The notes under the pieces were generated by a model that was not told the DNA's origin, did not search any database, and saw nothing but the letters and a program-made list of their open reading frames with translations. Positions 29,199-47,647 of a stretch of DNA of 64,000 nt are shown here, piece by piece (the first letter of the stretch is position 1; the number at the start of each line of letters is the position of its first letter). Made by a program: the position numbers and the translations under genes. The DNA is from Asaia bogorensis. GTDB lineage: Bacteria; Pseudomonadota; Alphaproteobacteria; Acetobacterales; Acetobacteraceae. The DNA is taken from NCBI GenBank assembly GCA_945897825.1, contig CAMDGX010000005.1, positions 1-64,000 on the forward strand, written 5' to 3'.

Positions 29199-29314
29199 GT
29201 TCTTTTTTGAAAAAAAGAACCAAAAAACTTTCCTCCCTTTGCGCCACGCCCGACAGACAGCCACCGCGCAAATGGATAAAAGTCTTTTTTCTTCTTTTTC
29301 TTCAGAAAAAGAAG
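29199..29314 (+). repeat. palindromic intergenic element, copy 1
   Basis: Hairpin A (GTTCTTTTTT/AAAAAAGAAC, 29199-29220) is joined by a CAAAAAACTTT link to a partly conserved inner inverted repeat (TTTGCGC ... GCGCAAATGGAT). A T-rich link and hairpin B (CTTCTTTTTC ... GAAAAAGAAG, 29291-29314) follow. Hairpin B ends 4 nt from the stop of the minus-strand oxygenase. This copy sits between tandem minus-strand genes. Confidence 0.9.
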
Positions 29315-29318
29315 AGTC

Positions 29319-30290: not shown

Positions 30291-30321
30291 CGTCCCCTCC
30301 ATCCCAAGGCAGCTGCCCAGC

Positions 30322-31692
30322 CTACTCCCCACCCCGCGGCCTGAACAAACTCAACACCCCCGCCCCCACCGAAAACCCCGCCGCCACCATCAGCACCAGC
30401 GACACACCCCCCGCCGGATACAGATTGAACAGCATCGCCACCAACGCCGACCCGATCGTCTGCCCCAACAGCCTGGACGTCGCCTGCATCCCGCTCGCCC
30501 CGCCCGACCGCGACCGCGGCGCCGCAGCCATGATCGTCCGGTTGTTCGGCGAGTTGAACAGCCCGAACCCCACCCCGCACACCACCATCGGCACAACGAT
30601 GGCAACCCAAGCGGGCCAAACCCACCCCGGCGCCCCACCCACCGAAGCCAGCAACACCAGCCCCAGACACAACCCCGCCTGCCCCAGCGCCCCCATCACC
30701 GCCGGCGAGAACCGGTCCGATAGCCGCCCCGCGAACATCGCCGTGAACGCCATCGCCGCCGACCACGGCGTCATCAGGATCCCCGTCTCCGTCTGCGACT
30801 TACCCAACTCCTGGATCAGCAGGAACGGCAGCGACGTGAACGCCATGCTCTGCGCCGCGAACGAACACACCGAGGCGGCAATCGACAGCGCGAACACCGG
30901 CCGCATCAACAGATCCACCGGCAACAGCGGCTTCGATTGCGGCAACTGCCGCCACACCAGCGCCACCCCCACCACCACCGCCCCCACCAGCTCCAGCGCG
31001 ATCCCCAGCCGGTCCTGCCCGTGCCCCAGCCCGTCGATCCCCAGGATCAACAGCCCGAAGAACGCCGCGTTCAGCGCCGCACTCGCCGGATCGAACTTCT
31101 GCGCCCCCAGCGGCGTCTCCGGCAGCGCCTTCCACCCGATCGCCAGCGCCAGCGCCCCCAGCGGCAAGTTCACCGCGAACAGCATGTGCCAGTCCGCCAC
31201 CGCCAGAATCCCCGACGCGATCGACGGCCCCAGCGCCGAGGTCGTCCCCCCGATCATCGCGTTGTAGCCAACCCCCCGCCCCAGCTGCGAAGCCGGATAG
31301 ATGAACCGGATCAGCGCCGTATTGACGCTCATCACCCCCGCCGCCCCGAACCCCTGCAGAACCCGCGCCCCCACCAGCTGCGGCATCGTCTGCGACAGCG
31401 CGCACGCCCCCGACGCCGCGGTGAACACCACCAGGCCCCACAGATAAACCCGCCGATACCCGAACTTCTCCCCCAGCGACGCCAACGGCAGCAACGTCAT
31501 CGTCACCGCCAGCTGATACGCATTCGCCACCCAGATCGCCTCGGAAGCGCTCACCTGGAATTCCCGCGAGATCGTCGGCAACGCCAAATTGGCCAACGTC
31601 CCGGTCAAAACCGCCATCGCCAGCCCCAACGCCAGCGTCAGGATCGCCCAGCCCCGCCGCGGAAACGGCAGCCCATCGGCGCTACCGCTCAT
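30322..31692 (-). CDS. major facilitator superfamily transporter (DHA-type)
   Basis: A polytopic inner-membrane transporter. The ATG at 31692 (MSGSADGLPFPRRG) gives 456 residues with about 12-14 hydrophobic segments. The loop 2-3 signature appears as LASLGEKFGYRRVYLWG. The start VLTGTLANLALPTIS and WVANAYQLAVTMTLLPLA match drug:H+ antiporters of the DHA2 group. The ATG is separated from a divergent DapA-like gene by copy 2 of the repeat element. Substrate and direction are not readable. Confidence 0.88.
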   Translation of the reverse strand: MSGSADGLPFPRRGWAILTLALGLAMAVLTGTLANLALPTISREFQVSASEAIWVANAYQLAVTMTLLPLASLGEKFGYRRVYLWGLVVFTAASGACALSQTMPQLVGARVLQGFGAAGVMSVNTALIRFIYPASQLGRGVGYNAMIGGTTSALGPSIASGILAVADWHMLFAVNLPLGALALAIGWKALPETPLGAQKFDPASAALNAAFFGLLILGIDGLGHGQDRLGIALELVGAVVVGVALVWRQLPQSKPLLPVDLLMRPVFALSIAASVCSFAAQSMAFTSLPFLLIQELGKSQTETGILMTPWSAAMAFTAMFAGRLSDRFSPAVMGALGQAGLCLGLVLLASVGGAPGWVWPAWVAIVVPMVVCGVGFGLFNSPNNRTIMAAAPRSRSGGASGMQATSRLLGQTIGSALVAMLFNLYPAGGVSLVLMVAAGFSVGAGVLSLFRPRGGE

Positions 31693-31783
31693 CGCGGGAA
31701 ACCTGCAACACATGCGTCATGCTGCAACGCAATATCCACGGCGCCCGAGAGGAGCGCAATGGCCAGGGAAGGCAAGGCAAGCA

Positions 31784-31924
31784 GTTCTTTTTGTGAACAA
31801 AAAGAACCAAAAAAACATCATCCCCTTGCGCCGCATCCTCCCGCCCGACACCCCGCGGCGCCCAACCGCCAAGTCCCGGCCCAATGAAAAAGTTTTTTTG
31901 CTTCTTTTTGTTCACAAAAAGAAG
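31784..31924 (+). repeat. palindromic intergenic element, copy 2 (variant arms)
   Basis: Here both outer hairpins carry different tips: GTTCTTTTTG/CAAAAAGAAC at 31784-31807 and CTTCTTTTTG/CAAAAAGAAG at 31901-31924. The central stem is decayed. Unlike other copies it lies between divergent start codons (MFS and the DapA-like gene), not after a stop. The 141-bp span is longer than the others. Confidence 0.85.
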
Positions 31925-31984
31925 GCCTTCCGCCCTTCCCTTCCGCAGCCTACCCTCCTGCACCCACCCGCGAAGGACGCGCCG

Positions 31985-32911
31985 ATGCCGAAGAACCTCA
32001 AGGACCTGCGGGGCGTCGTCCCCCCGGTCGTCACCCCGCTGAACGCCGACTTCACCGTCGACTACCCCTCGTTCACCCGCGTGATCGAGCATCTCATCCA
32101 GGGCGGCGTCCACGGCCTGTTCTTCCTCGGCTCCACCAGCGAGGTCGTCTTCCACGACGAAGCCACGCGCGACAAAATCCTCGCCCACGCCATCGAGATC
32201 ACCGCCGGCCGCCTCCCCGTCCTCGCCGGAATCGTCGACCCCACCACCGACCGCGTCATCGGCCACGCCAGGCGCGCCGCGTCCCTCGGCGTCGACGGCG
32301 TCGTCGTCACCGCCCCGTTCTACACCCGCACCAGCCAGCCCGAGACCGTCGAGCATTTCCGCTACGTGGCCGAAGCCTCCCCCACCCCGGTCATCGCCTA
32401 CGACCTGCCCGTCAGCGTCCACACCAAGCTGGCGCGCGACACCATCACCACCCTGGCGGCGGAAGGCGCCATCGTCGGCCTGAAGGATTCCAGCGGCGAC
32501 ACCGGCGGCCTGCGCTACGTCATCAGCGACATGGCCGCCCGCCCCGACTTCTTCTGCATGACCGGCGGCGAACTGGATGTCGACGGCGCCCTCCTGATGG
32601 GCGCCCACGGCGTCGTCCCCGGCCTCGGCAACGTCGACCCCGCCGCCTATGTCCGCCTCTACGACGCCGCAAGCCAGGCCAACTGGGCGTTGGCGAAAGC
32701 CGAGCAGGAACGCCTCTGCCGCCTGTTCGAAATCGTCTGGTGCGGCACCCCCCGCACGAGCGCGGGGGCGTCAGGCGTCGGCGGCTTCAAGACCGCCATG
32801 CGCGCCATGGGCCTGATCGCCACCAACACCATGGCCCGCCCGCAACGCAGCCTGAACGCCGAGGAATCCGCCCGCGTCGAGGCCATCATCCGCAGCGTCG
32901 GCCTGCTGTAG
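31985..32911 (+). CDS. dihydrodipicolinate synthase/N-acetylneuraminate lyase family aldolase
   Basis: A class I (Schiff base) aldolase or dehydratase of the DapA family. It has 308 residues. The catalytic Lys167 is in GLKDSSGD and Tyr139 in IAYDLPVS. GSTSE (49-53) replaces the usual GTTGE. The true DapA of this organism is probably elsewhere, since the gene stands among catabolic genes. A role in breaking down a sugar-acid or hydroxy-keto acid is inferred. Upstream GAAGGA serves as a ribosome site. Confidence 0.9.
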   Translation: MPKNLKDLRGVVPPVVTPLNADFTVDYPSFTRVIEHLIQGGVHGLFFLGSTSEVVFHDEATRDKILAHAIEITAGRLPVLAGIVDPTTDRVIGHARRAASLGVDGVVVTAPFYTRTSQPETVEHFRYVAEASPTPVIAYDLPVSVHTKLARDTITTLAAEGAIVGLKDSSGDTGGLRYVISDMAARPDFFCMTGGELDVDGALLMGAHGVVPGLGNVDPAAYVRLYDAASQANWALAKAEQERLCRLFEIVWCGTPRTSAGASGVGGFKTAMRAMGLIATNTMARPQRSLNAEESARVEAIIRSVGLL

Positions 32912-32919
32912 CTGTACGA

Positions 32920-32932
32920 TACAATTATTGTA
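32920..32932. promoter_or_regulatory. perfect AT palindrome upstream of tandem SDR genes
   Basis: TACAATTATTGTA is a perfect 13-bp palindrome, 9 nt after the DapA-like gene stop and about 105 nt upstream of the first SDR gene. It lies in a short AT-rich patch (32915-32960) in an otherwise GC-rich region. This looks like a regulator operator with promoter DNA. The regulator is not in the window. Confidence 0.45.
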
Positions 32933-33037
32933 ACGGAATAAAATTATAGCGTAATTGATGGGATCCCTGCTTACCTGTGCCCGACAAGAGCGGCCGGCCC
33001 GCGCGCCGCAACAGCCCTTCCCGCACAGGAGCCCTTC

Positions 33038-33796
33038 ATGCCCGCTTCCACCGCAACCCGCCTCACCGGCAAGGTCGCCCTGGTCACCGGCGCCTCGCGC
33101 GGCATTGGCGTCGCCATCGCCGAACGCCTTGCCGCCGAAGGGGCCGCCATCGCCGTCAACTACGTTGCCAGCGAAGCCGCCGCCCACGAAGTCGTCGCCC
33201 GCATCCGCGCCGCCGGCGGCACCGCCGAGGCCATCCAGGGCGATGTCAGCCAGGTCGCCGCCGCCACCCCGCTCATCGCCGAAACCATCCGCCGCCTCGG
33301 CCGCATCGACATCCTGGTCAACAACGCCGCCATCAGCGCCGGCATCGAGTTCGACGCCATCACGGAGGCCGATTTCGACCGCCTGGTCGCCACCAACATG
33401 AAGTCCGTGCTGTTCCTCTCCCAGGCCGCAGCCCGCGAAATGGCCCCCGGCAGCGTCATCATCAACCTCAGCTCGATCGGCACCCGCCTCGCCAACCCGA
33501 TCACCGTCGTCTACACCGCCACCAAGGCCGCCGTGGAGATGATGACCCTCTCCATGGCCCGCGCCCTCGGCCCGCGCCGCATCCGCGTGAACGCGGTGGC
33601 GCCAGGCATGACCGACACGGAAATGCTCCGCAGCGTCATCGCCCCCGAGGTGCTGGAGGAGGCGGCCCGCCGCAACACGCTGGGCCGTCTGGGCCAGGTC
33701 GGAGACATCGCCCCCGTCATCGCCTTCCTCGCCTCCGACGACGCCGGCTGGATCACCGGCGAAACCATCCACGTCAACGGCGGCCAGCGCGGCTGA
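33038..33796 (+). CDS. SDR-family oxidoreductase, copy 1
   Basis: A classical short-chain dehydrogenase/reductase of 252 residues. The Rossmann cofactor motif is TGASRGIGVAIAERL. NNAAI follows in the usual position. The catalytic Ser (NLSSIG), Tyr and Lys of YTATK are present with the normal 13-residue Ser-Tyr spacing. The C-terminus is WITGETIHVNGGQRG, typical of 3-oxoacyl-ACP reductase-like SDRs. A nearly identical gene follows 38 nt downstream, so this is a tandem duplication. The substrate is unknown. Confidence 0.93.
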   Translation: MPASTATRLTGKVALVTGASRGIGVAIAERLAAEGAAIAVNYVASEAAAHEVVARIRAAGGTAEAIQGDVSQVAAATPLIAETIRRLGRIDILVNNAAISAGIEFDAITEADFDRLVATNMKSVLFLSQAAAREMAPGSVIINLSSIGTRLANPITVVYTATKAAVEMMTLSMARALGPRRIRVNAVAPGMTDTEMLRSVIAPEVLEEAARRNTLGRLGQVGDIAPVIAFLASDDAGWITGETIHVNGGQRG

Positions 33797-33834
33797 GCAC
33801 TCCCCGCCACCACCCTCAGCGACAGGACCTCACC

Positions 33835-34593
33835 ATGCCCCAGCCCGTCTGCTCCCGCCTCGCCGGCAAGGTCGCCCTGGTCACCGGCGCCTCCCGCGGC
33901 ATCGGCGTCGCCATCGCCGAACGCCTGGCCGCCGAAGGGGCCGCCGTCGCCGTCAACTACGTCGCCAGCGAAGCCGCCGCCCACGAAGTCGTCGCCCGCA
34001 TCCGCGCCGCCGGCGGCACCGCCGAGGCCATCCAAGGGGACGTGAGCCAGGTCGCCGCCGCCGCGCCGCTGGTCGCCGAAACCATCCGCCGGCTCGGCCG
34101 CCTCGACATCCTGGTGAACAACGCCGCCATTGCCGCCGCCATCCCGTTCGACGACATCACTGAAGCTCATTTCGACCAGACGGTGGCCACCAACATGAAG
34201 TCGGTGCTGTTCATCTCGCAGGAAGCCGCCCGCGCCATGCCGCCCGGCAGCGTCATCGTCAACCTTGGCTCCATAGGCACGCGCATCGCCCCGCCCGCGA
34301 ACACCGTCTACGTCGCCACCAAGGCCGCCGTGGAGATGATGACCCTCTCCATGGCCCGCGCCCTCGGCCCGCGCGGCATCCGCGTGGTGGCCGTGGCACC
34401 CGGCCTCACCGACACAGAAATGCTGCGCGGCGCCGTCACTCCGCAGTACCTGGCCGAGGCCCCCGCCCGCAACATGCTCGGCCGCCTCGGCCAAACTACC
34501 GACATCGCCCCCGTCATCGCCTTCCTCGCCTCCGACGACGCCGGCTGGATCACCGGCGAAACCATCCACGTCAACGGTGGCCAGCGCAGTTGA
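33835..34593 (+). CDS. SDR-family oxidoreductase, copy 2 (tandem paralogue)
   Basis: A 252-residue SDR that repeats the previous gene almost word for word through the cofactor half (residues 10-95 differ at only a handful of positions). It diverges more after residue 100, for example AIAAAIPFDDITEAH. The catalytic Ser of NLGSIG, and Tyr and Lys in YVATK, are intact, so both copies should be active. The pattern suggests recent tandem duplication with retained function or gene conversion in the 5' half. Same direction and probably the same transcript. Confidence 0.93.
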   Translation: MPQPVCSRLAGKVALVTGASRGIGVAIAERLAAEGAAVAVNYVASEAAAHEVVARIRAAGGTAEAIQGDVSQVAAAAPLVAETIRRLGRLDILVNNAAIAAAIPFDDITEAHFDQTVATNMKSVLFISQEAARAMPPGSVIVNLGSIGTRIAPPANTVYVATKAAVEMMTLSMARALGPRGIRVVAVAPGLTDTEMLRGAVTPQYLAEAPARNMLGRLGQTTDIAPVIAFLASDDAGWITGETIHVNGGQRS

Positions 34594-34729
34594 GCCACCA
34601 CCTGCACCAAGCAAATCCTTCCATCGGCGCGGCGCCGGCGCCTCGTCATCTTGTCGTTTCGTTACGAACATTTCCAGGAGCGGCGTGCTATCATCCCGGC
34701 GTGCCCCTCCAACCACCGCGAGGCCCACC

Positions 34730-35515
34730 ATGTCCGGCACCATCCGCTTCGACGACGGAACCGCCTACGAGGAAAGCATGGGCCGCTGGAGCGAGCTCGC
34801 CGGCGCGGAATTCCTCGCATGGCTCGCCCCGCCCGCCGGCGCCGCCTGGTTGGATATCGGCTGCGGCACCGGCGTCTTCTCGCGCATGATCGCGAGAAGC
34901 TGCGCCCCCGCCGCCATCACCGCGATCGACCCGTCCGAGGCCCAGCTCGCCTACGCCCGCCAGGCCGCGCCCGCCATCCACTACCAGCAGGCCGACGCCC
35001 AGGCCCTGCCCTTCCCCGCCGCCAGCTTCGACCAGGCCGTCATGGCCCTGGTCATCTTCTTCCTGCCCGACCCCGCGAAAGGCGTCGCCGAGATGGCCCG
35101 GATCCTGCGCCCTGGCGGCACCGCCAGCGCCTATGCCTGGGATTCGCTCGGCGGCGGCACACCCACCGTCCCCGTCCAGCGCGTCCTGGAGGCCCATGGC
35201 CACAAGCCGCCGAACCCGCCCAGCCCCGCCGCCTCCGGCCTCGCCCAGCTGCGCGCCCTCTGGTCCGCCGCCGGCTTCACCGGCATCGAAACCCGAAGGA
35301 TCGACATCGGCATGCGCTTCGAAAGCTTCGCCGCCTACTGGGCCATGATGCGCCGTATGTCCCGCGTCAGCCCCCTGCTCGACAGCCTGGGCGAAGCCGA
35401 GGTCGAAGCCATCCGCGTCGACCTGCGCCAGCGCGTCGCCCCCGGCCCCGAAGGCCCCTTCACCGCCCCCGCCCATGCCAACGCCGTCCGCGGCCACCTG
35501 CCCGCGCGCGCCTAG
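34730..35515 (+). CDS. class I SAM-dependent methyltransferase
   Basis: A small-molecule methyltransferase of the UbiE/COQ5-like fold. It has 261 residues. SAM motif I is LDIGCGTGVFSR near residue 41. Motif II is the acidic IDPSEAQ, and a QADAQALPFPAASFD post-motif precedes the MALVIFFLPDP catalytic-region beta-strand. The ATG at 34730 was chosen because upstream frames add low-complexity residues. The methyl acceptor is not predictable; neighbours give no clue. Confidence 0.88.
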   Translation: MSGTIRFDDGTAYEESMGRWSELAGAEFLAWLAPPAGAAWLDIGCGTGVFSRMIARSCAPAAITAIDPSEAQLAYARQAAPAIHYQQADAQALPFPAASFDQAVMALVIFFLPDPAKGVAEMARILRPGGTASAYAWDSLGGGTPTVPVQRVLEAHGHKPPNPPSPAASGLAQLRALWSAAGFTGIETRRIDIGMRFESFAAYWAMMRRMSRVSPLLDSLGEAEVEAIRVDLRQRVAPGPEGPFTAPAHANAVRGHLPARA

Positions 35516-35587
35516 GCAGCCGAGCACCCTGAAAAATTTCTCCTCAGACCCTTGCATCGCTAACGTTTGTTATTTATATTCCCATCC

Positions 35588-36217
35588 ATGAGCACCGCAC
35601 CCCCCCTCCCGGCCCGGACCACCCCGGCCGAAGCCGCCCTGGCGGCCGGGGACCTCGCGCGCCTGCTCGACATCATTCTCGCCAGCCTGCTCGACACCCT
35701 CTGGACCCGCTCGCTCTACGCCCGCCTCCTCGGCCCGCTCGCCACCCTGGTCTGGCAGCGCATCGCCCGCACCCGTGAGCGCCTCGCCCGCGCCCTGGCC
35801 CACATCGCCGCCGGCTGCACCCCGCGACCGACCCTCCCGCGCACAACCCCGCGCGCCGCGACGCCCCGCGCGCCCTTCCCCAACCGCCGCCACGGCTGGC
35901 TCGGCGCGATGCTCGACCACGCCATCCGCAACCACGCCTCCCAGCTCGGCCACCTGCTGGCCCGCCCCGGCGTGGCCGGAATCATCGCCGCCTCGCCCGG
36001 CGCGCTGCGCACCCTGCGCCCGCTCTGCCACATGCTCGGCGCCACCCTTCCCGCGTCCCTGCGCCTGCCGCCGCGTTCCCCCCGGCCGCGCCCCGCCTGC
36101 CCCAAGCCGAAGCAAGCCGCCCCGCCTGTCCACTCGGGCACCCCCGACCGCCCCCTGCAGCCCTACGTCCGCGCCGCCGTGCGCGCCTGGCATCGCCCGC
36201 GCGCAAAAAACACCTGA
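35588..36217 (+). CDS. hypothetical protein, Arg/Pro-rich
   Basis: A 209-residue reading frame that I do not recognise. The start at 35588 (MSTAPPLPART) follows an AT-rich patch (35560-35587) that could hold a promoter. Residues 20-75 and 105-150 are predicted amphipathic/hydrophobic helices (LLDIILASLLDTLW, MLDHAIRNHASQLGHLLARP). They are linked by Arg/Pro/Thr-rich segments. Codon use is GC-rich, as in neighbours, so reading-frame length alone is weak evidence. It may be a lineage-specific gene; function unknown. Confidence 0.5.
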   Translation: MSTAPPLPARTTPAEAALAAGDLARLLDIILASLLDTLWTRSLYARLLGPLATLVWQRIARTRERLARALAHIAAGCTPRPTLPRTTPRAATPRAPFPNRRHGWLGAMLDHAIRNHASQLGHLLARPGVAGIIAASPGALRTLRPLCHMLGATLPASLRLPPRSPRPRPACPKPKQAAPPVHSGTPDRPLQPYVRAAVRAWHRPRAKNT

Positions 36218-36367
36218 CGTCGCATGAGCGAACCCACGCCCTTTTTGTTCCGTTGTAGTATTGTTTCATGGGAAGCCACCGGAACCCCAGCCCCCAGCCC
36301 GGCTTGAGCCAGATCAAGGCCGGCCTGTCACCGGCCTGTCATCGTGCCGCAACAGAAGGAGGCAGCA

Positions 36368-36784
36368 ATGGCCCAACGCCCGATCGGAGAGATCATCCGC
36401 CGCGCCCCCGTCACCCTGCCGGACTCCGCCAGCGTCCAGGATGCCTGCCGCACCATGCACGACCAGCGCATCGGCGCGATCATCGTCCTCGACGAACACG
36501 GCCAGCTCGCCGGCATCTTCACCGGCCGCGACGCCGTCCGCCTCCTCGCCCAGGGCCACAGCCCGGCCCACACAAGGCTCGACCGCGTCATGACCCGCAA
36601 CCCCGAATGCATCCGCCCGGCCGACCACGCCCTCGATGCCCTGCGCACCATGGGCGACGGCGGCTTCCGCCACCTCCCCGTGGTCGAGAACGGCCGCGTC
36701 GTCGGCCTCGTCTCGGTCGGCGACTTCCGCAGCATCGAACACGCCAGGCTCGACGAGGAAACCGGCTTCTGGGAACGGATCTAG
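36368..36784 (+). CDS. CBS-domain pair protein
   Basis: A 138-residue cytoplasmic protein made of two consecutive CBS domains (about residues 10-65 and 72-130), forming one Bateman module that senses adenine nucleotides or similar ligands. Motifs are GAIIVLDEHGQLAGIFTGRD and HLPVVENGRVVGLVSVGD. The ATG is preceded by a perfect AGGAGG. Its stop codon overlaps, on the opposite strand, the stop of the following lipoprotein gene. The regulatory target is unknown. Confidence 0.9.
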   Translation: MAQRPIGEIIRRAPVTLPDSASVQDACRTMHDQRIGAIIVLDEHGQLAGIFTGRDAVRLLAQGHSPAHTRLDRVMTRNPECIRPADHALDALRTMGDGGFRHLPVVENGRVVGLVSVGDFRSIEHARLDEETGFWERI

Positions 36785-37251
36785 CCCCCGGCAGCACACC
36801 GCAGCACATAGGCGCGCCGCACCGGATAATAGTGCCGCGCCACGAACGCCTCCCGCCCCGGCGCAACCTCCCTCAGCACCCCCTCCGTCAACCCTGGCGG
36901 CTCGTCCACCCGCCCCACCACCGCATCCACCGTCCCCGCATCCCCCAGCCGCACCCGCAGCAGATCCCCCTCCGCCACGGTCATCCCCACCGGCAGCACC
37001 GCCTGGTGGAACACCACCTCCACCGGCGAAACCGCGCACCGAACCGCCACCACCCGCCCCTGCCCCGCCAGCGCCGCCAACCCCGTGGCCGCCTCCCGCG
37101 CCCGCTCGGCCGCCGACCGATACGCCGCATTGCCGGCCATCATCGCCGGCGTCACCGGCCGCATCACCACCGCGCGGATCTCGCTGCCGGCCGGCGGCCC
37201 GGAACACGCCGCCAGGGCCAGCAGCCACGCCAGTCCGACCACGCCCCGCAT
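36781..37251 (-). CDS. putative lipoprotein, hypothetical
   Basis: A 156-residue protein with a lipoprotein signal: MRGVVGLAWLLALAAC with a lipobox cysteine at residue 16. The ATG at 37251 is favoured because GGAG lies 8 nt upstream; ATGs at 37257 and 37275 are alternatives. The mature part has an RxRLGDAGTVDAVVGRV segment and no recognised domain. It is convergent with the CBS gene, the two stop codons overlapping by 2-3 nt. It is probably anchored in the outer or inner membrane. Confidence 0.7.
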   Translation of the reverse strand: MRGVVGLAWLLALAACSGPPAGSEIRAVVMRPVTPAMMAGNAAYRSAAERAREAATGLAALAGQGRVVAVRCAVSPVEVVFHQAVLPVGMTVAEGDLLRVRLGDAGTVDAVVGRVDEPPGLTEGVLREVAPGREAFVARHYYPVRRAYVLRCAAGG

Positions 37252-37320
37252 CGGCATCGCTCCCGGCTGAAACACCCGCGGGGACTCTACACCGACGCCG
37301 CCATCGCGCTAGAAACGGCC

Positions 37321-38349
37321 ATGACCCATACCATCATGATCGCCTCCCCCCTCGAAGCCGAGCACGTCGAAGCCATCCGCGCGACCCATCGCGACATCGA
37401 GGTGCTCTACGACCCCACCCTGCTGCCCACCCCGCGTTACATCGCCGACCACAAGGGCGCCCCCTTCGCCCGCACCCCGCTGCAACAGGCCCGCTGGAAC
37501 GAGATGCTCGCCGAAGCCGAGATCCTGTGGGACCTGCCCGCCGAAGCCGACCTGCCGCATCTCGCCGCCCTGAAATGGATCCAAACCACCAGCACCGGCG
37601 TCGGCCCCTCCGTCGCCGCCCTGGGCCTGGCCGAACGCGACATCCTGGTCACCACCGCCCGCGGCGTGCACGCGCGCCCGCTGGCCGAGTTCGTGTTCAT
37701 GGCCCTGCTCTCCCACTGGCGCGGCCTGAAGCACCTTGAAGCCGAGCAGAAGCAGCACGCCTGGAACCGCTATTGCGGCGAGGAAGTCGCCGGCCGCCGC
37801 CTGGTCATCATCGGCGCCGGCGACCTCGCCCGCGGCTGCGCCCGCCTCGCCCGCGCCTTCGACATGCAGGTCATCGCCGTCGCCCGCGACCCCGCCCGCA
37901 GCCGCGCCCACAACGACCTGTTCGACGCCGTGGTCCCGACCGCCCGGATGCACGAAGCCCTCGCCCAGGCCGATGCCGTCGTCGTCACCGTGCCCCATAC
38001 CGCCCAGACCGAGAACATGATCGACGCCGCCGCCTTCGCCGCCATGCCCCACGGCGTCGCCTTCGTGAACATCGCCCGCGGCACGGTGGTCGACGAGGAT
38101 GCGCTGATCGAAGCCTGCGCCTCCGGCCGCATCGGCTTCGCCGCCCTGGACGTGGCCCGCGTCGAGCCGCTGGCCATGGACAGCCCGCTGTGGGACATGC
38201 GAAACGTGCTGATCTCGCCCCACTCCGCCAGCACGGTCACCTCGGAGAACCGCCGCATCACCGACATCTTCCGCCACAACCTGCAGTGCTGGATCGACGG
38301 CCGGCTCGGCGACATGCGCAACGTGCTGGACAAGAAGCTGCTGTACTAA
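37321..38349 (+). CDS. D-isomer-specific 2-hydroxyacid dehydrogenase family
   Basis: An NAD(P)-dependent oxidoreductase of 342 residues, with the N-terminal catalytic half, a GAGDLARGCARLA Rossmann segment, and the late catalytic residues Arg in NIARGTVVDE, Glu in ARVEPL and His in SPHSAS. The family reduces 2-keto acids to D-hydroxy acids or oxidises phosphoglycerate-like acids. The ATG at 37321 lies 70 nt after the divergent lipoprotein start. Copy 3 of the repeat starts 4 nt after its stop. Confidence 0.9.
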   Translation: MTHTIMIASPLEAEHVEAIRATHRDIEVLYDPTLLPTPRYIADHKGAPFARTPLQQARWNEMLAEAEILWDLPAEADLPHLAALKWIQTTSTGVGPSVAALGLAERDILVTTARGVHARPLAEFVFMALLSHWRGLKHLEAEQKQHAWNRYCGEEVAGRRLVIIGAGDLARGCARLARAFDMQVIAVARDPARSRAHNDLFDAVVPTARMHEALAQADAVVVTVPHTAQTENMIDAAAFAAMPHGVAFVNIARGTVVDEDALIEACASGRIGFAALDVARVEPLAMDSPLWDMRNVLISPHSASTVTSENRRITDIFRHNLQCWIDGRLGDMRNVLDKKLLY

Positions 38350-38493
38350 GCACCTTCTTTTTCTGAAGAAAAAGAAGCAAAAAGACTTTTCATCCATTTG
38401 CACCCGGCCCGACCATCCGCCAAGGCGCCAATGGATGGAAAGTTTTTTGGTTCTTTTTTTCAAAAAAGAACATTCTTGCGTCTGGAGCGAACC
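38350..38493. other. GC-skew polarity switch point
   Basis: The plus strand is C-rich on the left and G-rich on the right of this spacer, whatever the gene strand. Sampled counts on the plus strand: 30961-31020 C37/G10 and 33181-33240 C28/G20; 37921-37980 C26/G18; 38941-39000 C17/G28 and 48121-48180 C14/G31. The change falls within one gene, at repeat copy 3. Confidence 0.65.
38354..38471 (-). repeat. palindromic intergenic element, copy 3
   Basis: Hairpin B (38354-38377) begins 4 nt after the dehydrogenase stop. The inner arm CATCCATTTGCACC is partly matched by GGCGCCAATGGATGG. Hairpin A is at 38450-38471. It is followed 22 nt later by the DUF1028 ATG with GGAGCG upstream. Orientation is opposite to copies 1, 2 and 4. 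Confidence 0.9.
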
Positions 38494-39174
38494 ATGACCT
38501 TCTCCCTCCTGGGCCGCTGCCCCCGCACCGGCCAGTTCGGCGCGGTCGTCACCACCTCCGCGGTCGGCGTCGGGGCAAGGGTGCCGTTCGCCCGTGCCGG
38601 CGTGGGCGCGGTGCTGACGCAGCATCGCACCGATCCCCGCCTTGGCCCGCTGGGCCTTGAGCTGCTTGCCCGCGGCTTCACGGCACGGCAGACGATCGAT
38701 GCGATCGTGGCGGCAACCCCGCACCGGGACTGGCGCCAGCTCGCGGTGATCGACACCGCCGGGCGGACCGCGCATTTCGACGGGGCGAAGGTTCGCCAGG
38801 CCATCTCCGTCGCGCACGGCATCGATTGCGTGGCCGCCGGCAACATCCTGCGCAACGAGGCGGTGGCGCCCGCGATGGTGGCCGCGTTCGAGGCGGAGCC
38901 CGCCTTGCCGCTGGCAACGCGGCTGGTGCGGGCGATCCAGGCCGGCGAGGACGCAGGCGGCGAGACGGCTCCGGTGGTGTCGGCCTCGCTGCTGGTAGTG
39001 GCGAGCGAGAGCTTTCCATTCGTCGACCTGCGCGTGGATGCGCACGACCAGCCCTTGGCGGAGCTGGCGCGGCTCTGGGCGCTGTACGAACCGACCGCGG
39101 AAGACTACGTGCGCCGGGCAATCGACCCGGATTTCGCCGCCACCTATGTCCCGCCATCGCCCAAGGCGAATTGA
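38494..39174 (+). CDS. DUF1028 family protein
   Basis: A 226-residue protein of the DUF1028 family, an Ntn-hydrolase-like fold of unknown enzymatic role. Signatures include MTFSLLGRCPRTGQFGAVVT with a Ser-rich nucleophile-like N-terminus, and AAGNILRN. Members are often found with M20 or RidA genes. The ATG at 38494 follows GGAGCG. It is co-directional with the AtzG-like gene and amidase; a nitrogen or amino acid catabolic context is inferred, not shown. Confidence 0.9.
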   Translation: MTFSLLGRCPRTGQFGAVVTTSAVGVGARVPFARAGVGAVLTQHRTDPRLGPLGLELLARGFTARQTIDAIVAATPHRDWRQLAVIDTAGRTAHFDGAKVRQAISVAHGIDCVAAGNILRNEAVAPAMVAAFEAEPALPLATRLVRAIQAGEDAGGETAPVVSASLLVVASESFPFVDLRVDAHDQPLAELARLWALYEPTAEDYVRRAIDPDFAATYVPPSPKAN

Positions 39175-39230
39175 CTCCCCCGCGGCAATGCTGCGCAGAC
39201 TTGTGCTTGCAGCATGAACGCGGGGGACCG

Positions 39231-39431
39231 ATGTCGCAGCCGTTGACCCAGGTGGAATTCGAGGCGCTGGTGAAGCGCGCCGGGCTCGACCTCACGCCCG
39301 AGAACATCGCCGACCTCTACAGCGCCTGGCCGCATATCGAGCGATTCACCGCCCGGCTGCGCAACCCGGCGCGCGGGCGCGAGGCCGAGCCGGCGCACCT
39401 GTTCCGCCCGCTCAATCCGGAGGGCGTGTGA
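39231..39431 (+). CDS. AtzG-like (DUF4089/GatC-like) small amidase partner
   Basis: A 66-residue protein starting MSQPLTQVEFEALVKRAGLD with helical GatC/AtzG character (ENIADLYSAWPHIERFTARL) and a C-terminal EPAHLFRP. AtzG-type proteins form a complex with an amidase-signature enzyme. The amidase ATG is 2 nt after this stop, supporting a paired heteromer. The family assignment rests on the size, sequence shape and gene context. The function is unproven for this paralogue. Confidence 0.75.
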   Translation: MSQPLTQVEFEALVKRAGLDLTPENIADLYSAWPHIERFTARLRNPARGREAEPAHLFRPLNPEGV

Positions 39432-39432
39432 C

Positions 39433-40821
39433 ATGGACGCCTTCCCCACCATCGCCTCGGCGGCTGCCGACCTGGCGGCCAGGAAGATTTCGCCGGTGGA
39501 GCTGACGAAGCACCTGCTCGCCCGCATCGCCAGGCTGGACGGGCAGTTGCACAGCTTTCTGATGGTCACCGAGGAGCGCGCGCTGGCCGACGCCAAGGCC
39601 GCCGAGGCCCGCTTCATGGCCGGCCAGCCGCGCGGCCGGCTGGACGGGATTCCGATCGCCCACAAGGACATCTACGGCACCGCCGGTATCCGCACGACCG
39701 GGCATTCCCGCCTGCTGGAACACAACGTGCCGGCGACCGATTCGACCGTGGTGCGCAAATGGGCCGAGGCCGGCACCATCATGCTGGGCAAGCTCGCGAC
39801 GCATGAATTCGCCATGGGCGGGCCGAGCTTCGACCTGCCCTGGCCGCCGGCGCGCAATCCGTGGAACACCGAGCATTTCACCTCCGGATCGTCGTCCGGC
39901 ACCGGCGCGGCGGTGGCGGCCGGGCTGATCCTCGGCGGCACCGGCTCGGATACCGGCGGCTCGATCCGTGGTCCGGCGGCGTTCTGCGGCATCGCCGGCA
40001 TCAAGCCGACTTACGGCCTGTGCTCGCGCGCCGGCGTGCTGCCGCTGACCTATTCGATGGACCACACCGGCCCGATGGCCTGGACGGTGGAGGATTGCGC
40101 CCTCCTGCTCCAGGCAATGGCCGGCCACGACCCGACCGACCCGGCCAGTTCGACACGGGCCGCGCCCGACCTGCTGTCCGGGCTGAACAACGGCGTGGCC
40201 GGGCTGCGCATCGGCGTGGTGCGGCATTTCCACGAGGTCGACCACAAGGTGAACCCCGCAGTGCAGAAGGGGATCGACGACGCGGTCGAGATCCTGCGCA
40301 ACCAGGGCGCGTCGATCCGCGAAGTGACCTTGCCGTCGCTGCAGGATTTCCAGGCGGCAGGCTTCCTGATCCTGATCACCGAGGCCTATGCGCTGCACGA
40401 GAAGTGGCTCAAGACGCGCTGGAACGAATACGGCGAGCTGTTCCGCGACAGGGTGAGCTTCGGCGGCCTGATCAGCGGCGCGGACTATGTGGAGGCGGTG
40501 CGGCGGCGGCGCGAGTTGCAGCAGGCGGTGGCGGCGGCCATGGCCGACGTCGACATCCTGCTGACCGCGGGCGCGCCGACCGAGGCGCCGAAGATCGAGG
40601 GAATGCCGAAATGGTCGAGCCTGGAGAAGCCCGGTTTCACCATCCCGTTCAACCTGACCGGCCAGCCGGCGATGACGATCTGCTCCGGGTTCGGCGAGGG
40701 CGGATTGCCGGTCGGCATCCAGCTCGCGGCGAAGCCGTTCGAGGACGGGCTGCTGCTGCGGGTGTGCCAGGCCTATGAGAAGGCGACGCCCTGGCGGGGC
40801 ACGCGCCCGGCGATGGCTTGA
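39433..40821 (+). CDS. amidase signature-family hydrolase
   Basis: An amide hydrolase of 462 residues. The Ser-cisSer-Lys triad is visible: Lys78 in AHKDIYGTAG and the serines in SGSSSGTGAAVAAG. The GGTGSDTGGSIRGPAAFCGI signature follows. It lies directly after the small AtzG-like gene, 1 nt between stop and ATG. The substrate may be a urea- or biuret-like compound or a generic amide; GatA is excluded because gatB and gatC are not adjacent. A strong terminator follows. Confidence 0.93.
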   Translation: MDAFPTIASAAADLAARKISPVELTKHLLARIARLDGQLHSFLMVTEERALADAKAAEARFMAGQPRGRLDGIPIAHKDIYGTAGIRTTGHSRLLEHNVPATDSTVVRKWAEAGTIMLGKLATHEFAMGGPSFDLPWPPARNPWNTEHFTSGSSSGTGAAVAAGLILGGTGSDTGGSIRGPAAFCGIAGIKPTYGLCSRAGVLPLTYSMDHTGPMAWTVEDCALLLQAMAGHDPTDPASSTRAAPDLLSGLNNGVAGLRIGVVRHFHEVDHKVNPAVQKGIDDAVEILRNQGASIREVTLPSLQDFQAAGFLILITEAYALHEKWLKTRWNEYGELFRDRVSFGGLISGADYVEAVRRRRELQQAVAAAMADVDILLTAGAPTEAPKIEGMPKWSSLEKPGFTIPFNLTGQPAMTICSGFGEGGLPVGIQLAAKPFEDGLLLRVCQAYEKATPWRGTRPAMA

Positions 40822-40830
40822 GTGACGCAA

Positions 40831-40864
40831 CAAGGGGCCGCCGGAGCAATCCGGCGGCCCCTTG
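40831..40864. terminator. bidirectional terminator between amidase and PEP-CTERM gene
   Basis: A perfect stem of 14 bp (CAAGGGGCCGCCGG with its complement) and a 6-nt loop starts 9 nt after the amidase stop. It lies between convergent genes and ends 20 nt before the other stop. A short TTG and CAA flank the stem instead of long T-runs. Confidence 0.85.
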
Positions 40865-40883
40865 CCGCGGTTTCCGAGGTGCC

Positions 40884-41564
40884 TTAGGCCTTGCGGCGGC
40901 TGGCAATGCTCAGTGCGATCAGCCCAGCGCCGAGCAGCATCATCGATGCCGGCTCCGGCACGCTGCGCAGCTCGCCGTTGAAGCTGATGTTCGTGCTGGT
41001 TGGCCCGGCCAGCGCGGTCAGCGTCACCACCTGGGTGATCGAGTACAGTGCGCCCGTCTGGCCGACGGCGGTGTTCGAATAGGCGAAGGCGCCGCCGCCG
41101 AAGACGGCATTGCCGATCACGCTCTCGGTGCCAAACGCAACATTGGTGCTGTCGGTATAGGCCATGTAGGACAGCTGCGTGCCGGGGTTGACCGATACGG
41201 TGCCGCCGATCGCTGCGGTGAACAGACCGGAGGGCTCGGTGCTGGTCAGCCCGATCTCGGTCAGCATCATCGTCAGCGTGCCGCCCGCCGTATTTGAAAC
41301 GTTGATCGAATTGAGGTCGATCAGCGGGCTGTCCAGCGTTCCGGTGACCGGATAGCCGACGCCGGCGGTGACGTTGAAGGTCCAGTCGCCGATGGCGCCG
41401 ACATGGATCAGCGAGCCGACGCCCAGCGTGTCGATGAGCAGTACGGTCGGATTCACGCCGTCGGAGATGCTCAGCTGCAACTGCGGGACGGCTTCAGCCC
41501 GGTGCGCCGCGCCGATGGCCAGGACGGCCACAGCGGCGCAGAGCCAGCCGCGGAAGATGCTCAT
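40884..41564 (-). CDS. PEP-CTERM sorting-domain protein with sigma-54-type promoter
   Basis: A 226-residue secreted protein. The ATG at 41564 follows AGGAGC and begins a signal peptide (about residues 1-26, ending HRAEA). The body is rich in Thr, Gly, Ser and Asn, with repeated VTAG/NTAG-like strands, typical of exopolysaccharide-associated PEP-CTERM proteins. The C-terminal anchor is VPEPASMMLLGAGLIALSI then ASRRKA. A sigma-54-like site lies 45 nt upstream. No catalytic domain is seen. Confidence 0.9.
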   Translation of the reverse strand: MSIFRGWLCAAVAVLAIGAAHRAEAVPQLQLSISDGVNPTVLLIDTLGVGSLIHVGAIGDWTFNVTAGVGYPVTGTLDSPLIDLNSINVSNTAGGTLTMMLTEIGLTSTEPSGLFTAAIGGTVSVNPGTQLSYMAYTDSTNVAFGTESVIGNAVFGGGAFAYSNTAVGQTGALYSITQVVTLTALAGPTSTNISFNGELRSVPEPASMMLLGAGLIALSIASRRKA

Positions 41565-42017: not shown

Positions 42018-43178
42018 ATGGACAACCGGCATGGCGAGGTGTTGCTGGGTGCGTCCGCCCGGGGCGAGTTCCTGCTGGACGACGGCTTCGCCACCGCCAA
42101 TCACGGGGCTTACGGGGCCACGCCGCGCCCGGTGTTGGCGGCACAGGACGAATGGCGGGCGCGGATGGAGCGGCAGCCGAGCCGCTTCTTCAACGGCACC
42201 ATCCTGCCGGCGCTGCGGGCGGCGGCGGACGAGCTGGGCGCGTTCCTCGGCGCGCGCGGGGCGGATATCGGCTTCGTCGGCAATGCGACGGAGGGGGTGA
42301 ACGGCGTGCTGCGGTCGCTGCGCTTCGAGGCGGGCGATGAGATCGTGGTGCTGTCGCATGTGTATGGCGCGGTGCGGAACACGATCCGCCATGTGTGCGC
42401 GGTGAGCGGGGCGCGGATGGTGGAAGTGCCGGTGGCGTTTCCGCGGCCGGATGATGCGGATGTGCTGGCGGGGCTGGCAGGGGCGATCACCGGGCGGACG
42501 AAGTTGGCGGTGCTGGACCACATCACCTCCTCGACCGCGCTGTTGCTGCCGATTGGGGAGATGATTGCCGCGTGCCATGCGCGCGGGGTGAAGGTGCTGG
42601 TGGACGGAGCGCACGCGCCGGGCCAGGTGGCGCTGGATCTCACCGCGCTGGATGCCGACTGGTATGTCGGCAACTGCCACAAATGGCTGTTCGCGCCGAA
42701 AGGGTGCGGGTTCCTGTGGGCGCGGGCGGATCGGCAGGAGGGGATCCATCCGGCGGTGATCTCGCATGGGTATGGGCAGGGGTTCACGGCGGAGTTCGAC
42801 TGGACCGGGACGCGCGATCCGTCGGCCTGGCTGGCGGTGCCGGCGGCGCTGGCGTTCCATGCGCGGATGGGAGGTGCGGCGCTTATGGCGCGCAACGTGG
42901 CGCTGGCGGGTTCGGCCGGGGCGGCGCTGGCGGCGCGGTGGGGGACGGAGACCGGTGCCGGCAACCGGGCGGCGGGGGCGATGGCGATGGTGCGGCTTCC
43001 TGGGGGCGAGGCGTCTCAGGCGGCCGCGCTGCGCGGGCGGTTGCTGGAGGCGGGAACGGACGTGCCGATCATGGCGCATGGCGGGCGGCTGTGGCTGCGC
43101 TTGTCGGCGCAGGCCTACAACGAGGCGGCGGACTTCGCGCGCATGGGGGACCTGGTCGAGCAGGCGCTGGGCGGGTAG
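42018..43178 (+). CDS. class V aminotransferase / isopenicillin-N-epimerase-like PLP enzyme
   Basis: A PLP-dependent enzyme of 386 residues of the class V (CefD/NifS-like) group. The PLP Lys is in YVGNCHKWLFAPKGCGF, and the cofactor-binding Asp in VLVDGAHAPGQVALD. The N-terminal ATANHGAYGATPRP and NATEGVNGVLRSL match epimerase/aminotransferase family V. The ATG at 42018 is preceded by GGGGGGC; no better start is seen. It is 54 nt from the following TauD gene on the same strand. The substrate is unknown. Confidence 0.9.
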   Translation: MDNRHGEVLLGASARGEFLLDDGFATANHGAYGATPRPVLAAQDEWRARMERQPSRFFNGTILPALRAAADELGAFLGARGADIGFVGNATEGVNGVLRSLRFEAGDEIVVLSHVYGAVRNTIRHVCAVSGARMVEVPVAFPRPDDADVLAGLAGAITGRTKLAVLDHITSSTALLLPIGEMIAACHARGVKVLVDGAHAPGQVALDLTALDADWYVGNCHKWLFAPKGCGFLWARADRQEGIHPAVISHGYGQGFTAEFDWTGTRDPSAWLAVPAALAFHARMGGAALMARNVALAGSAGAALAARWGTETGAGNRAAGAMAMVRLPGGEASQAAALRGRLLEAGTDVPIMAHGGRLWLRLSAQAYNEAADFARMGDLVEQALGG

Positions 43179-43232
43179 CGGGGTGGCGGGGGCTCCGGTA
43201 TCGTCGCCGCAACAGGCGCAACGGAGGAAACC

Positions 43233-44114
43233 ATGCGGATCGCCCCCATCGACCCGGCGCGGCCGGATTTCGCCGGCATCGTCACCGGCATCGACCTGCG
43301 CCCAGGCGTGAGCCCGGCGGCGGCCGCGGAGATCGAGGCGGGGATGGACCGCTTCGCCGTGCTGGTGTTCCCCGGCCAGGCGATCGACGATGCGCAGCAA
43401 CTCGCGTTCAGCCGGCATTTCGGGCCGCTGGAGACCGCGACGGGGGACATCGTGCAGGGCGCGGATCGGCGCCTGCCGATGGATGTCAACGACATCTCCA
43501 ACGTGGACAAGGACGGGCGCGTGCTGGCGCGCGACGACCGCAAGCGGCTGTTCGCGCTGGGCAACATGCTGTGGCACTCGGACAGCTCGTTCAAGGCCAC
43601 CCCGGCGAAGTTCTCGCTGCTGTCGGCAAGGGTAATCCCGGACCATGGCGGCAACACGGAGTTCGCCGACATGCGCGCGGCGTGGGATGCGCTGGACGAC
43701 GACACCAAGTCGCTGGTGCGGGACTTGGTGTGCGACCACACCCAGCTGCATTCGCGCGGCACGCTGGGGTTCACCGACTTCACCGCGGAGGAGCGACAGC
43801 GGTTCGCGCCGGTGCCGCAACGGTTGGTGCGGCGGCATCCGGTGACGGGGCGGCTGTCGCTGTTCCTGTCGTCCCATGCCGGGTCGATCCATGGCTGGCC
43901 GGTACCGGAGGCGCTGATGCTGCTGCGGGACCTGGGCGAGCACGCGACGCAGTCGCAGTTCGTGTATCGGCATACGTGGCGGCAGCATGACCTGGTGATG
44001 TGGGACAACCGCACGACGATGCACCGGGCGCGGCGCTATCCGGCCGAGCAGGTGCGCGATCTGCATCGCACCACGGTGGCGGATTCGGCGCCGACGCTGG
44101 AGCAGGCGGCCTGA
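43233..44114 (+). CDS. TauD/TfdA-family Fe/2OG dioxygenase
   Basis: A 293-residue taurine/2,4-D dioxygenase-type enzyme. Iron ligands are His-x-Asp in LWHSDSSFK and the distal His in TMHRARRY; the 2OG-binding Arg lies in the terminal HRARRYPAEQVRD. Start ATG at 43233 follows GGAGG. The family oxidises alpha to sulfonate or aryloxy groups; the true substrate is unknown. Repeat copy 4 begins about 10 nt after its stop. Confidence 0.92.
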   Translation: MRIAPIDPARPDFAGIVTGIDLRPGVSPAAAAEIEAGMDRFAVLVFPGQAIDDAQQLAFSRHFGPLETATGDIVQGADRRLPMDVNDISNVDKDGRVLARDDRKRLFALGNMLWHSDSSFKATPAKFSLLSARVIPDHGGNTEFADMRAAWDALDDDTKSLVRDLVCDHTQLHSRGTLGFTDFTAEERQRFAPVPQRLVRRHPVTGRLSLFLSSHAGSIHGWPVPEALMLLRDLGEHATQSQFVYRHTWRQHDLVMWDNRTTMHRARRYPAEQVRDLHRTTVADSAPTLEQAA

Positions 44115-44124
44115 CAGGAAGAAC

Positions 44125-44241
44125 GTTCTTTTTTGAAAAAAAGAACCAAAAAACTTTTTTCCATTTGCGCGGCGCCGACCGGTTACCCCCGGCGCAAATG
44201 GATGAAAAGTCTTTTTGCTTCTTTTTCTTCAGAAAAAGAAG
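44125..44241 (+). repeat. palindromic intergenic element, copy 4
   Basis: Hairpin A is at 44125-44146 and hairpin B at 44218-44241. Between them the inner arms TCCATTTGCGC and GCGCAAATGGA are perfect. It lies between the TauD stop (about 10 nt) and the cyclase ATG (25 nt). A polypurine AGGAG follows hairpin B, so the element ends just before the next ribosome site. Confidence 0.9.
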
Positions 44242-44266
44242 AATCCTTATCTAGGAGACCCGTACC

Positions 44267-45316
44267 ATGACCAATCCGCGCTGGACACGCCGCCCCGAGG
44301 GGTCGACCTGGGGCGACTGGGGGCCTGACGACCAGCTCGGGCGGCTCAATCTGCTGACGCCCAGGAAGGTGTTGCAGGGGATTGCCGAGGTGAAGGAGGG
44401 GCGGGCGTTCTGCCTGTCGCTGCCGTTGGATTATCCGGGCGGGAACGTGATCAACCCGCGGCGGCATCCGCCGGAGCTGATGCCGACGTTCCGCGACGGG
44501 CGCGCGAACATGGCGGTGCCGCTGCGGTGCTACGACCCGAATGCGCTCGATGTGATCTGCGACGACCGCGTGCTGCTGACGCTTCAGTATTCGACGCAGT
44601 GGGACACGCTGGCGCATGTCGGCCAGATGTTCGACGTGGATGGCGACGGGCGGATGGAGGACGTGTTCTACAACGGCTTCCGCGCCGGGACGGATGTCGC
44701 CGGGCCGCTGGAGTACGACCGCGGGGTGGAGGGGCGGCCGAATCCCGTGCCGCCCGGTGCCCACAAGCTGGGGGTGGAGAACATCGCGGCGACCTGCGTG
44801 CAGGGCCGCGCCGTCATGATCGACCTGCTGGCGCATCACGGGCGCAGCGGCAAGGTGGTCGGCTACGCGGAGCTGATGGCGATCCTGGAGAAGGACCGCG
44901 TGGTGGTGGAGGAAGGCGACATGGTGTGCTTCCGCACCGGGTTCGCCGAGCTGCTGCTGGAGATGAAGAAGCAGCCGGACCGGGACGTACTGTTCGGCAC
45001 GACGAGCGCGCTCGACGGGCGCGACGAGCGGCTGCTGCAATGGATCACCGATAGCGGGGCGGTGGCGCTGTTCGCCGACAACTACGCGGTCGAGGCGATG
45101 CCGGCGCGGCCGGGCTCGGCCGATCCGTGCGCGACGCTGCCGCTGCATGCGCATTGCCTGTTCAAGCTCGGCTGCTACCTCGGCGAGATGTGGTACTTCA
45201 CGGAACTGGCCGACTGGCTGCGGGCCAATGGGCGCAACCGGTTCCTGATGACGGCGCCGCCGCTGCGGCTGCCCGGGGCCGTGGGCTCGCCGGCGACGCC
45301 GGTGGGGACCGTGTAG
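44267..45316 (+). CDS. cyclase-family (kynurenine formamidase-like) hydrolase
   Basis: A 349-residue protein of the cyclase family (PF04199), a metal-dependent amide or ester hydrolase group. The metal motif is the family variant QYSTQWDTLAHVG rather than HxGTHxD. LPLHAHCLFKLG supplies another expected metal His in the C-terminal third. The ATG at 44267 follows AGGAG. The position 58 nt before a PPC-domain gene suggests an operon, but the substrate is unknown. Confidence 0.87.
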   Translation: MTNPRWTRRPEGSTWGDWGPDDQLGRLNLLTPRKVLQGIAEVKEGRAFCLSLPLDYPGGNVINPRRHPPELMPTFRDGRANMAVPLRCYDPNALDVICDDRVLLTLQYSTQWDTLAHVGQMFDVDGDGRMEDVFYNGFRAGTDVAGPLEYDRGVEGRPNPVPPGAHKLGVENIAATCVQGRAVMIDLLAHHGRSGKVVGYAELMAILEKDRVVVEEGDMVCFRTGFAELLLEMKKQPDRDVLFGTTSALDGRDERLLQWITDSGAVALFADNYAVEAMPARPGSADPCATLPLHAHCLFKLGCYLGEMWYFTELADWLRANGRNRFLMTAPPLRLPGAVGSPATPVGTV

Positions 45317-45374
45317 CCCGGAACCCTCGTCGTCGCGCCGTCATTGCGGGAGCAGTGGCGGCAGGAGGACGGGG

Positions 45375-45815: not shown

Positions 45816-45915
45816 CCGGGGCGGATTGCGCCGGGATCCGCGCCATTTGGCGGAACCAGCCGGCCCGGGCTGCGTCATCCGGACAGTTTGATACGGCAAC
45901 CCGGGAGTCCGCGGC

Positions 45916-47091: not shown

Positions 47092-47106
47092 CCGGGAGGC
47101 ATCGCC

Positions 47107-47637: not shown

Positions 47638-47647
47638 CAGGAAGGTT

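Follow-up and report, generated by a model that had tools for sequence, protein, structure and literature searches.

The change from a C-rich to a G-rich top strand in the stretch of DNA analyzed here is a single tooth in a sawtooth pattern of strand composition that spans the genome, with sharp rises of GC skew followed by gradual falls. This stretch, hereafter the window, comprises positions 1 to 64,000 of contig CAMDGX010000005.1 (C5) in an Asaia bogorensis draft (GCA_945897825.1; hereafter G000). The draft consists of 208 contigs and 4.93 Mb, with completeness stated as 96.7%, and 809 kb of it were examined, namely contigs C1–C9 nearly whole, apparently the longest ones (C1, C3, C4, C5 and C9 being covered completely), and 20 kb around dnaA on C15. 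The main measure was top-strand GC skew at four-fold codon sites, taken gene by gene. Because the gene caller is blind to the choice between G and C at third positions, skew there cannot drive the calls. Steps were counted as changes of four-fold skew over a 6-kb baseline, with thresholds of at least 0.5 and at least 0.7; that the change-points of jumps fall inside genes is so by construction and carries no evidence.

The reversal in the window

The flip is real, both at four-fold sites and in 1-kb skew, and the four plus-strand base counts that an earlier note on this DNA had quoted for it were all exact on recount. Raw 1-kb skew lies between −0.25 and −0.28 at 35–38 kb, between −0.05 and +0.06 at 38–42 kb and between +0.10 and +0.24 at 42–55 kb, and the cumulative-skew minimum of the window is at 40,179. 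The switch had been placed at 38.35–38.5 kb, and a two-level model of the four-fold sites does put its step nearby, at 38,573 (range 38,552–38,687), but the change consists of two steps around a neutral plateau at 38.5–41.6 kb (Table 1). The last ORF of this plateau, together with the spacer that extends from it to 42018, lies near the lowest-GC kilobase of the window (41–42 kb). Since the genes that flank this ORF are directly adjacent in two congeners (G006 and G001), it was either inserted here or lost there.

Genes on both strands share the local sign at four-fold sites, in agreement with the earlier statement that the flip is independent of gene strand. To the left, top-strand four-fold skew is −0.89 in a minus-strand MFS gene and −0.62 in the plus-strand gene at 31985–32911, the four plus-strand genes beside the MFS gene ranging from −0.62 to −0.70; to the right it is +0.55 in the plus-strand gene at 42018–43178 and +0.64 in the minus-strand gene at 48568–49329, with +0.20 to +0.64 for genes on both strands throughout 42–51 kb. 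Beyond the window, skew stays slightly negative until contig C5 ends at 84.5 kb. Per-gene skew has a lag-1 autocorrelation of 0.83 across 677 genes, as against at most 0.14 in 1000 permutations, and the pattern is therefore far beyond chance.

Table 1. Features of the window, with top-strand four-fold skew where given.
Feature	Position	Strand	Four-fold skew or remark
Near-zero tail of preceding tooth	1..12602	12 minus-strand genes	−0.21 to +0.20 in 10 of 12
Four tRNAs	between 5.2 and 12.8 kb
C-rich left flank of jump	12854..38349	both	−0.23 to −0.89
Copies of the intergenic repeat	29190–29336, 31772–31940, 38342–38482, 44106–44249
Further copies of the repeat	47636–47777, 49336–49495, 59312–59443
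MFS gene	30322..31692	minus	most negative value, −0.89 (16 G, 267 C)
D-2-hydroxyacid dehydrogenase gene	37321..38349	plus	last gene of C-rich flank
Intergenic inverted-repeat copy	38342..38482	plus	~120-nt family, long hairpin; adjoins jump
Transition zone	38494..41564		+0.05 to +0.15
DUF1028 gene	38494–39174		in transition zone
Small ORF	39231–39431		in transition zone
Amidase gene	39433–40821		in transition zone
ORF	40884–41564	minus	in transition zone; no Pfam match at 1e-8
G-rich right flank	42018..61032	both	+0.20 to +0.64, declining toward far end
Decay of tooth through zero	61168..64000		−0.01, −0.04, −0.19

A sawtooth that follows position

The sawtooth is visible in both the raw and the four-fold skew of the 809 kb from G000. 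Steps of at least 0.5 number 16 up and 6 down, those of at least 0.7 number 15 up and 1 down, and overlapping 4-kb differences above 0.7 run 42 up and 0 down. The steps recur about every 50 kb (nine measured intervals span 25–80 kb), with sharp rises and gradual falls. Centered on the change-points, the mean profile passes from −0.28 to +0.31, peaks at −0.44 and +0.48 some 3–5 kb away and has faded by 20–30 kb. In a 24.6-kb interval the jump amplitude is still +0.68, so that short spacing brings no shrinkage. Gene strand has an effect of only −0.023 on skew in G000, and in intergenic DNA the sign is shared, with an amplitude about a third as large. AT skew is only weakly developed in G000, and in G006 it is inconsistent. 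Extrapolation from the 16 jumps in 809 kb would give about 97 in the whole genome.

The skew of a gene depends on the side of a jump on which the gene lies. Among 127 orthologues, gene skew correlates with that of the surroundings, the gene itself excluded, at r 0.92 in G000 and 0.91 in G006. In seven congener comparisons, restricted to absolute local skew above 0.15 in both species and with some genes recurring, both genes follow their surroundings in 115 of the 126 orthologue pairs with surroundings of the same sign and in 28 of the 36 comparisons with surroundings of opposite sign. Gene order around 37–45 kb of the window is largely common to the congeners, and the window jump is found at the same genes in G006 and G001; in G003 and G005 the genes to its left carry positive skew, and the orthologues of the MFS gene are skewed oppositely. 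For the dehydrogenase gene at 37321–38349, compared across seven congeners at identities of 81% or more, the gene-oriented skew of the 4-kb locus is negative in G001, G002, G004 and G006 and positive in G003, G005 and G007.

The jumps also drift between species. On contig C4 the jump lies at 66.3 kb in G000 and near 59.5 kb (G000 coordinates) in G006, a displacement of 6–7 kb inside collinear genes: 11 of the 13 genes at 55.0–72.1 kb have G006 orthologues in the same order and on the same strand, and three of them switch from −0.79, −0.78 and −0.66 in G000 to +0.52, +0.69 and +0.60 in G006. On C3, the jump in G006, G004 and G008 is shifted some 1 kb to the left of its place in G000, and G005 has a weaker jump a few kilobases to the right. 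Gene-oriented skew is kept in blocks that were inverted across a jump (73.7–90 kb in G006; 66–73.5 kb in G003) and reversed in a block carried across unflipped (43.6–54.9 kb in G002), as expected around origins.

Outside G000, the sawtooth recurs in the congener G006, where 602 kb contain 7 steps up and 0 down, spaced more widely than in G000; if extrapolated to 5.1 Mb, this would amount to about 59 jumps. The short contigs of G001–G005 and G008 (249 kb) have a skew standard deviation (0.375) close to that of G000 (0.386), with 4 steps up and 4 down at 0.5 or more and 1 up and 0 down at 0.7 or more. Seven other genera of the family (473 kb) have zero steps and a standard deviation of 0.096, and 41 named single-gene neighborhoods, each 15 kb or longer (836 kb in total, most but not all of them from the family), have 1 up and 0 down; G044, in which no genes were called, does not enter these counts. 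Two further genera of the family, G014 (0 steps up and 1 down, the latter adjoining a run of N) and G028 (2 up, 2 down), combine strong skew in long one-signed stretches with no clear sawtooth, and are candidates for a related, more widely spaced pattern; four-fold skew reaches about 0.8 in G028:C141 1–120000 and in G014:C67 100001–379482.

These data bear on the explanations first offered for the window. Many similar flips, the outcome named at the start as refuting, do occur along the genome, and the flip is therefore neither the single origin of the replicon nor a unique joint. Its polarity, from C-rich to G-rich, is indeed that of a replication origin, as had been remarked, and its amplitude would also suit the idea that this jump alone is the chromosomal oriC. 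Unlike the canonical oriC, which occurs once per chromosome with DnaA boxes and marker genes, the jumps are repeated and have neither: fifteen others of at least 0.5 lie in the same 809 kb, no DnaA-box cluster was found at the flip, and the single dnaA match of G000 is on contig C15, the absence of both from the flip being as first described. We consider a sole origin here exceedingly improbable. Hardly more probable is that replicon arms were inverted or joined through the repeat, or that rearrangement scrambled a chromosome which had a single strong origin, even though inversions between congeners occur. Bacterial genomes frequently carry inversions biased about the origin-terminus axis (PMC5850607, in excerpt). 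Scrambling should yield up and down steps equally, which the ratio of 15 to 1 contradicts, and the jump moves inside collinear genes whose orthologues carry opposite skew (C4 of G000 against G006; C5 of G000 against G003 and G005). A repeat copy was said to lie exactly at the switch, and the copy at 38342–38482 does adjoin the flip, but the repeats are not enriched at jumps: a copy lies within 300 bases of 2 of the 16 jumps (0.79 expected, P 0.18) and within 1 kb of 3 of the 16 (2.36 expected), and of the 58 copies 10 are no more than 4 kb from a jump, a range that takes in 15.8% of the sequence, the figures for 8 kb being 25 of 58 and 31.3%, a modest excess. With this lack of enrichment the repeat was rejected as the cause of the jumps, and the copy beside the window jump seems to be a coincidence. 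In favor of an effect of gene orientation or expression, acting through codon use or transcription, a codon-strand effect does exist in the family (for example −0.119 in G019 and −0.209 in G028), but the very small effect in G000 and the local sign shared by both strands and by intergenic DNA make this, too, very improbable for the sawtooth. Skew that tracks position, and a jump that has moved within collinear genes, argue alike against inversion, misassembly and codon use. All three are unlikely, as are rearrangement more broadly and a single oriC, which leaves a process with strand polarity that sets out from drifting zones and works outward in both directions over tens of kilobases.

Proposed replication initiation zones and competing readings

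The leading strand is G-rich in most bacteria. From the sequence patterns we tentatively propose, at somewhat less than even confidence, that each jump marks a drifting zone of bidirectional replication initiation. A sharp C-to-G jump would then be a zone of a few kilobases with a higher rate of bidirectional replication starts than the rest of the chromosome, and the two forks would travel outward until they met the forks of the neighboring zones. Differing mutation of the leading and lagging strands would, over evolution, turn G-rich the strand that runs outward 5′ to 3′ (leading-type), and a gradual shift in the mix of fork directions between zones would produce the slow fall of skew. The zones would drift by kilobases between species without a change of gene order, seemingly not being fixed to one sequence. 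Forks from many zones would explain the polarity, the gene-strand independence, the change of sign between jumps, the effects of inversion and the drift; the asymmetry between up and down steps speaks for replication, and so do the polarity and the two-sided decay, which are those of bidirectional origins. The positive skew that lasts to about 50 kb from the rise on contig C8 of G006 does so too, although the rise of that interval has few sites and a dip at 35–40 kb may hide a second small jump. We infer that the fork is the moving agent, together with the kind of mutation bias and a number of zones between tens and about 100 per chromosome, perhaps 60–100. Held a shade more loosely is the wider proposal that the genus replicates its ~5-Mb chromosome from 60–100 such dispersed, drifting zones with no sequence-specific origin motif, as a bacterial counterpart of the human skew N-domains.

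Several results argue against replication, among them the absence of an origin motif, the orientation of genes and the weak AT skew. In G000, 0 of the 3 exact DnaA boxes (TTATNCACA) lie within 3 kb of a jump; one-mismatch boxes at jumps number 4 of 28 in G000 (3.3 expected) and 1 of 26 in G006 (1.8 expected), and no cluster of three such boxes in 600 bases was found. No 7- or 9-mer is enriched at jumps (best excess 7.2 and 6.5, against random-set maxima of 7.3 and 8.2), nor is an AT-rich element, and GC and coding density show no marked change there. Within 3 kb of jumps GANTC is in mild excess (135 against 110.4 expected), and Chi occurs 27 times against 40.8 expected. In G006 the orthologous transition falls within a series of genes separated by spacers no longer than 53 bases. 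The 15 proteins at jumps share no common gene family, being mostly enzymes and transporters, with one TamB, one Ku, two DUFs and one without a match at 1e-8. The Ku (end-joining) gene, a single case, is at G000:C1:38649–39521.

Co-orientation of genes with the supposed forks is lacking (225 of 434, 51.8%, in G000; 148 of 328, 45.1%, in G006), and the ribosomal L2 operon genes occupy, in both genomes, the strand other than the mildly G-rich one, an observation confounded by codon use that also counts against replication. Co-oriented tRNAs are 10 of 14 in G000 and 1 of 4 in G006, numbers too few to weigh; at absolute skew above 0.15 the G000 tRNAs are 6 co-oriented and 0 anti, and clustered. Also adverse are the 4 up and 4 down steps in the short congener contigs and the stretches at 80–108 kb on C8 and 66–93 kb on C42 of G006, where near-zero plateaus rather than a straight line separate distant jumps. 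The shape of the intervals favors neither model: over 119 points in 9 intervals, a linear N fits with an R2 of 0.690 and fixed-length tracts fit with 0.678 and 0.689. Loss of RNase HI, as a path to origin-free initiation, was set aside because the gene is present. An oriC is expected near mnmG and hemE, and neither mnmG (gidA) nor hemE was found in the G000 assembly. Because mnmG is present in 8 of 8 congeners, with its surroundings covered to 1.5 kb, the usual oriC neighborhood is probably missing from this assembly.

Among the points against replication are also substitution counts that show no clear strand bias. C–G exchanges make up 52–86% of four-fold differences within the genus, which might have suggested a peculiar mutation spectrum, but they make up 53–86% in control genera (16 pairs from three of four groups; Belnapia, Roseicella, Paracraurococcus/Dankookia), and only the strand bias is therefore special. 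With substitutions polarized by parsimony and G000 as outgroup, a first count on the G-rich strand of strongly skewed genes gave C>G at 101 of 529 sites (0.19) and G>C at 134 of 1764 (0.076), with C>T at 23 of 529 and G>A at 42 of 1764, as if cytosine were being lost from that strand. This count does not stand, since 86 of the 101 C>G changes come from the comparison with G002, in which part of the genes are oppositely skewed in the outgroup. When all three species lie on the same side of the jump (20 gene comparisons), the loss is no longer seen: C>G is 101 of 850 (0.119), G>C 230 of 2327 (0.099), C>T 23 of 850 (0.027) and G>A 85 of 2327 (0.037), and without G002 the two transversions are equal (0.090 and 0.088). 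The lack of a clear bias in this count lowered our confidence in the replication reading from even to its present level, and took the many-zone proposal down by a similar small amount from just under even. Parsimony on skewed composition is error-prone and may hide a strand bias, which may otherwise be weak or in part a relic; the skew itself could be partly a relic. A DnaE2/ImuB transversion idea found no support in the excerpt of PMC7198004.

Two other readings share the drifting zones and differ in the agent. If the jumps were hot spots of recombination or breakage, single-stranded tracts or repair synthesis would extend outward from them for tens of kilobases and be filled in an error-prone way while replication remained ordinary. 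The maximum near the jump and the decay over about 20–25 kb suit such tracts, fixed-tract fits being as good as the linear one; one of the jumps has a Ku end-joining gene, and the substitution counts are compatible. The sign is a difficulty: single-stranded DNA usually loses C, and 5′–3′ resection would expose the bottom strand to the right of a break, giving the opposite skew, an argument that assumes C loss, of which the same-side count gave no clear sign. The undiminished amplitude in the 24.6-kb interval and the skew that persists far out in the wide interval of G006 C8 also count against hot spots, which we think unlikely, though far from negligible. About as unlikely, in our estimation, is an undescribed strand-polar process, for instance an outward long-range helicase or transcription indifferent to gene strand, that acts or once acted from the jump zones. 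The lack of origin-like sequence at jumps, of gene co-orientation and of a clear current strand bias in substitutions would fit it, but the polarity of the jumps is that of forks, and we know of no process of the helicase or transcription kind that acts over tens of kilobases regardless of gene strand.

Related systems and other features of the window

Human skew N-domains, with sharp upward jumps and a gradual, sign-changing fall, have been read as fork polarity around initiation zones (PMC3320577, in excerpt), and the sawtooth resembles them in both features as well as in its independence of gene strand and its presence in intergenic DNA. Those domains, in the portion of that article available, are of megabase size and belong to a eukaryote, whereas the present intervals of 25–80 kb belong to a bacterium; here, moreover, single-gene four-fold skew reaches about 0.9 and jumps drift between congeners. 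In cyanobacteria such as Synechocystis 6803 and Nostoc 7120, DnaA-independent replication from multiple origins is experimental knowledge and skew is irregular (PMC7198777, partial text). Our proposal shares with them a bacterial chromosome started at many places and differs in its regular, strong sawtooth, in its basis and in the one dnaA match of G000. Several bacterial origins have been proposed from changes of skew polarity (Xia 2012, PMC3269012; Gao 2015, PMC4403523), in the passages available to us from whole-genome plots or as a pair of putative oriCs on each chromosome, where rearrangement or transfer is also considered; for the loci compared here, collinear orthologues with reversed skew argue against rearrangement. 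The same passages pose multiple origins per bacterial chromosome as an open question. We found no published report of a regular bacterial skew sawtooth in a search that left out bioRxiv and most subscription journals.

The sawtooth offers dozens of testable positions per genome, and among the congeners the same genes can be compared on either side of a jump. Should forks start at the jumps, the genus would serve as a bacterial model of initiation zones that lack origin sequences; otherwise a strong mutation process with strand polarity, of another kind, awaits discovery. The sawtooth also warns against taking a local GC-skew minimum for an oriC or a misassembly.

The intergenic repeat is a family of inverted elements of ~120 nt with complementary A/T-rich ends, present in 58 copies in the 809 kb of G000, and is possibly a bidirectional terminator or a small mobile repeat; the copy at 38342 folds at −50.3 kcal/mol (z −6.9). 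A tandem gene pair in the C-rich flank (33038–33796 and 33835–34593), the first member of which is a short-chain dehydrogenase by Pfam, contains stretches 92% identical at the DNA level, which indicates recent duplication. Further along the contig, a continuous minus-strand call of 5757 codons (G000:C5:67263–84533) runs nearly to the contig end and perhaps encodes one giant protein; G001 has a similarly long gene at the matching place, with 57.5% identity to it.
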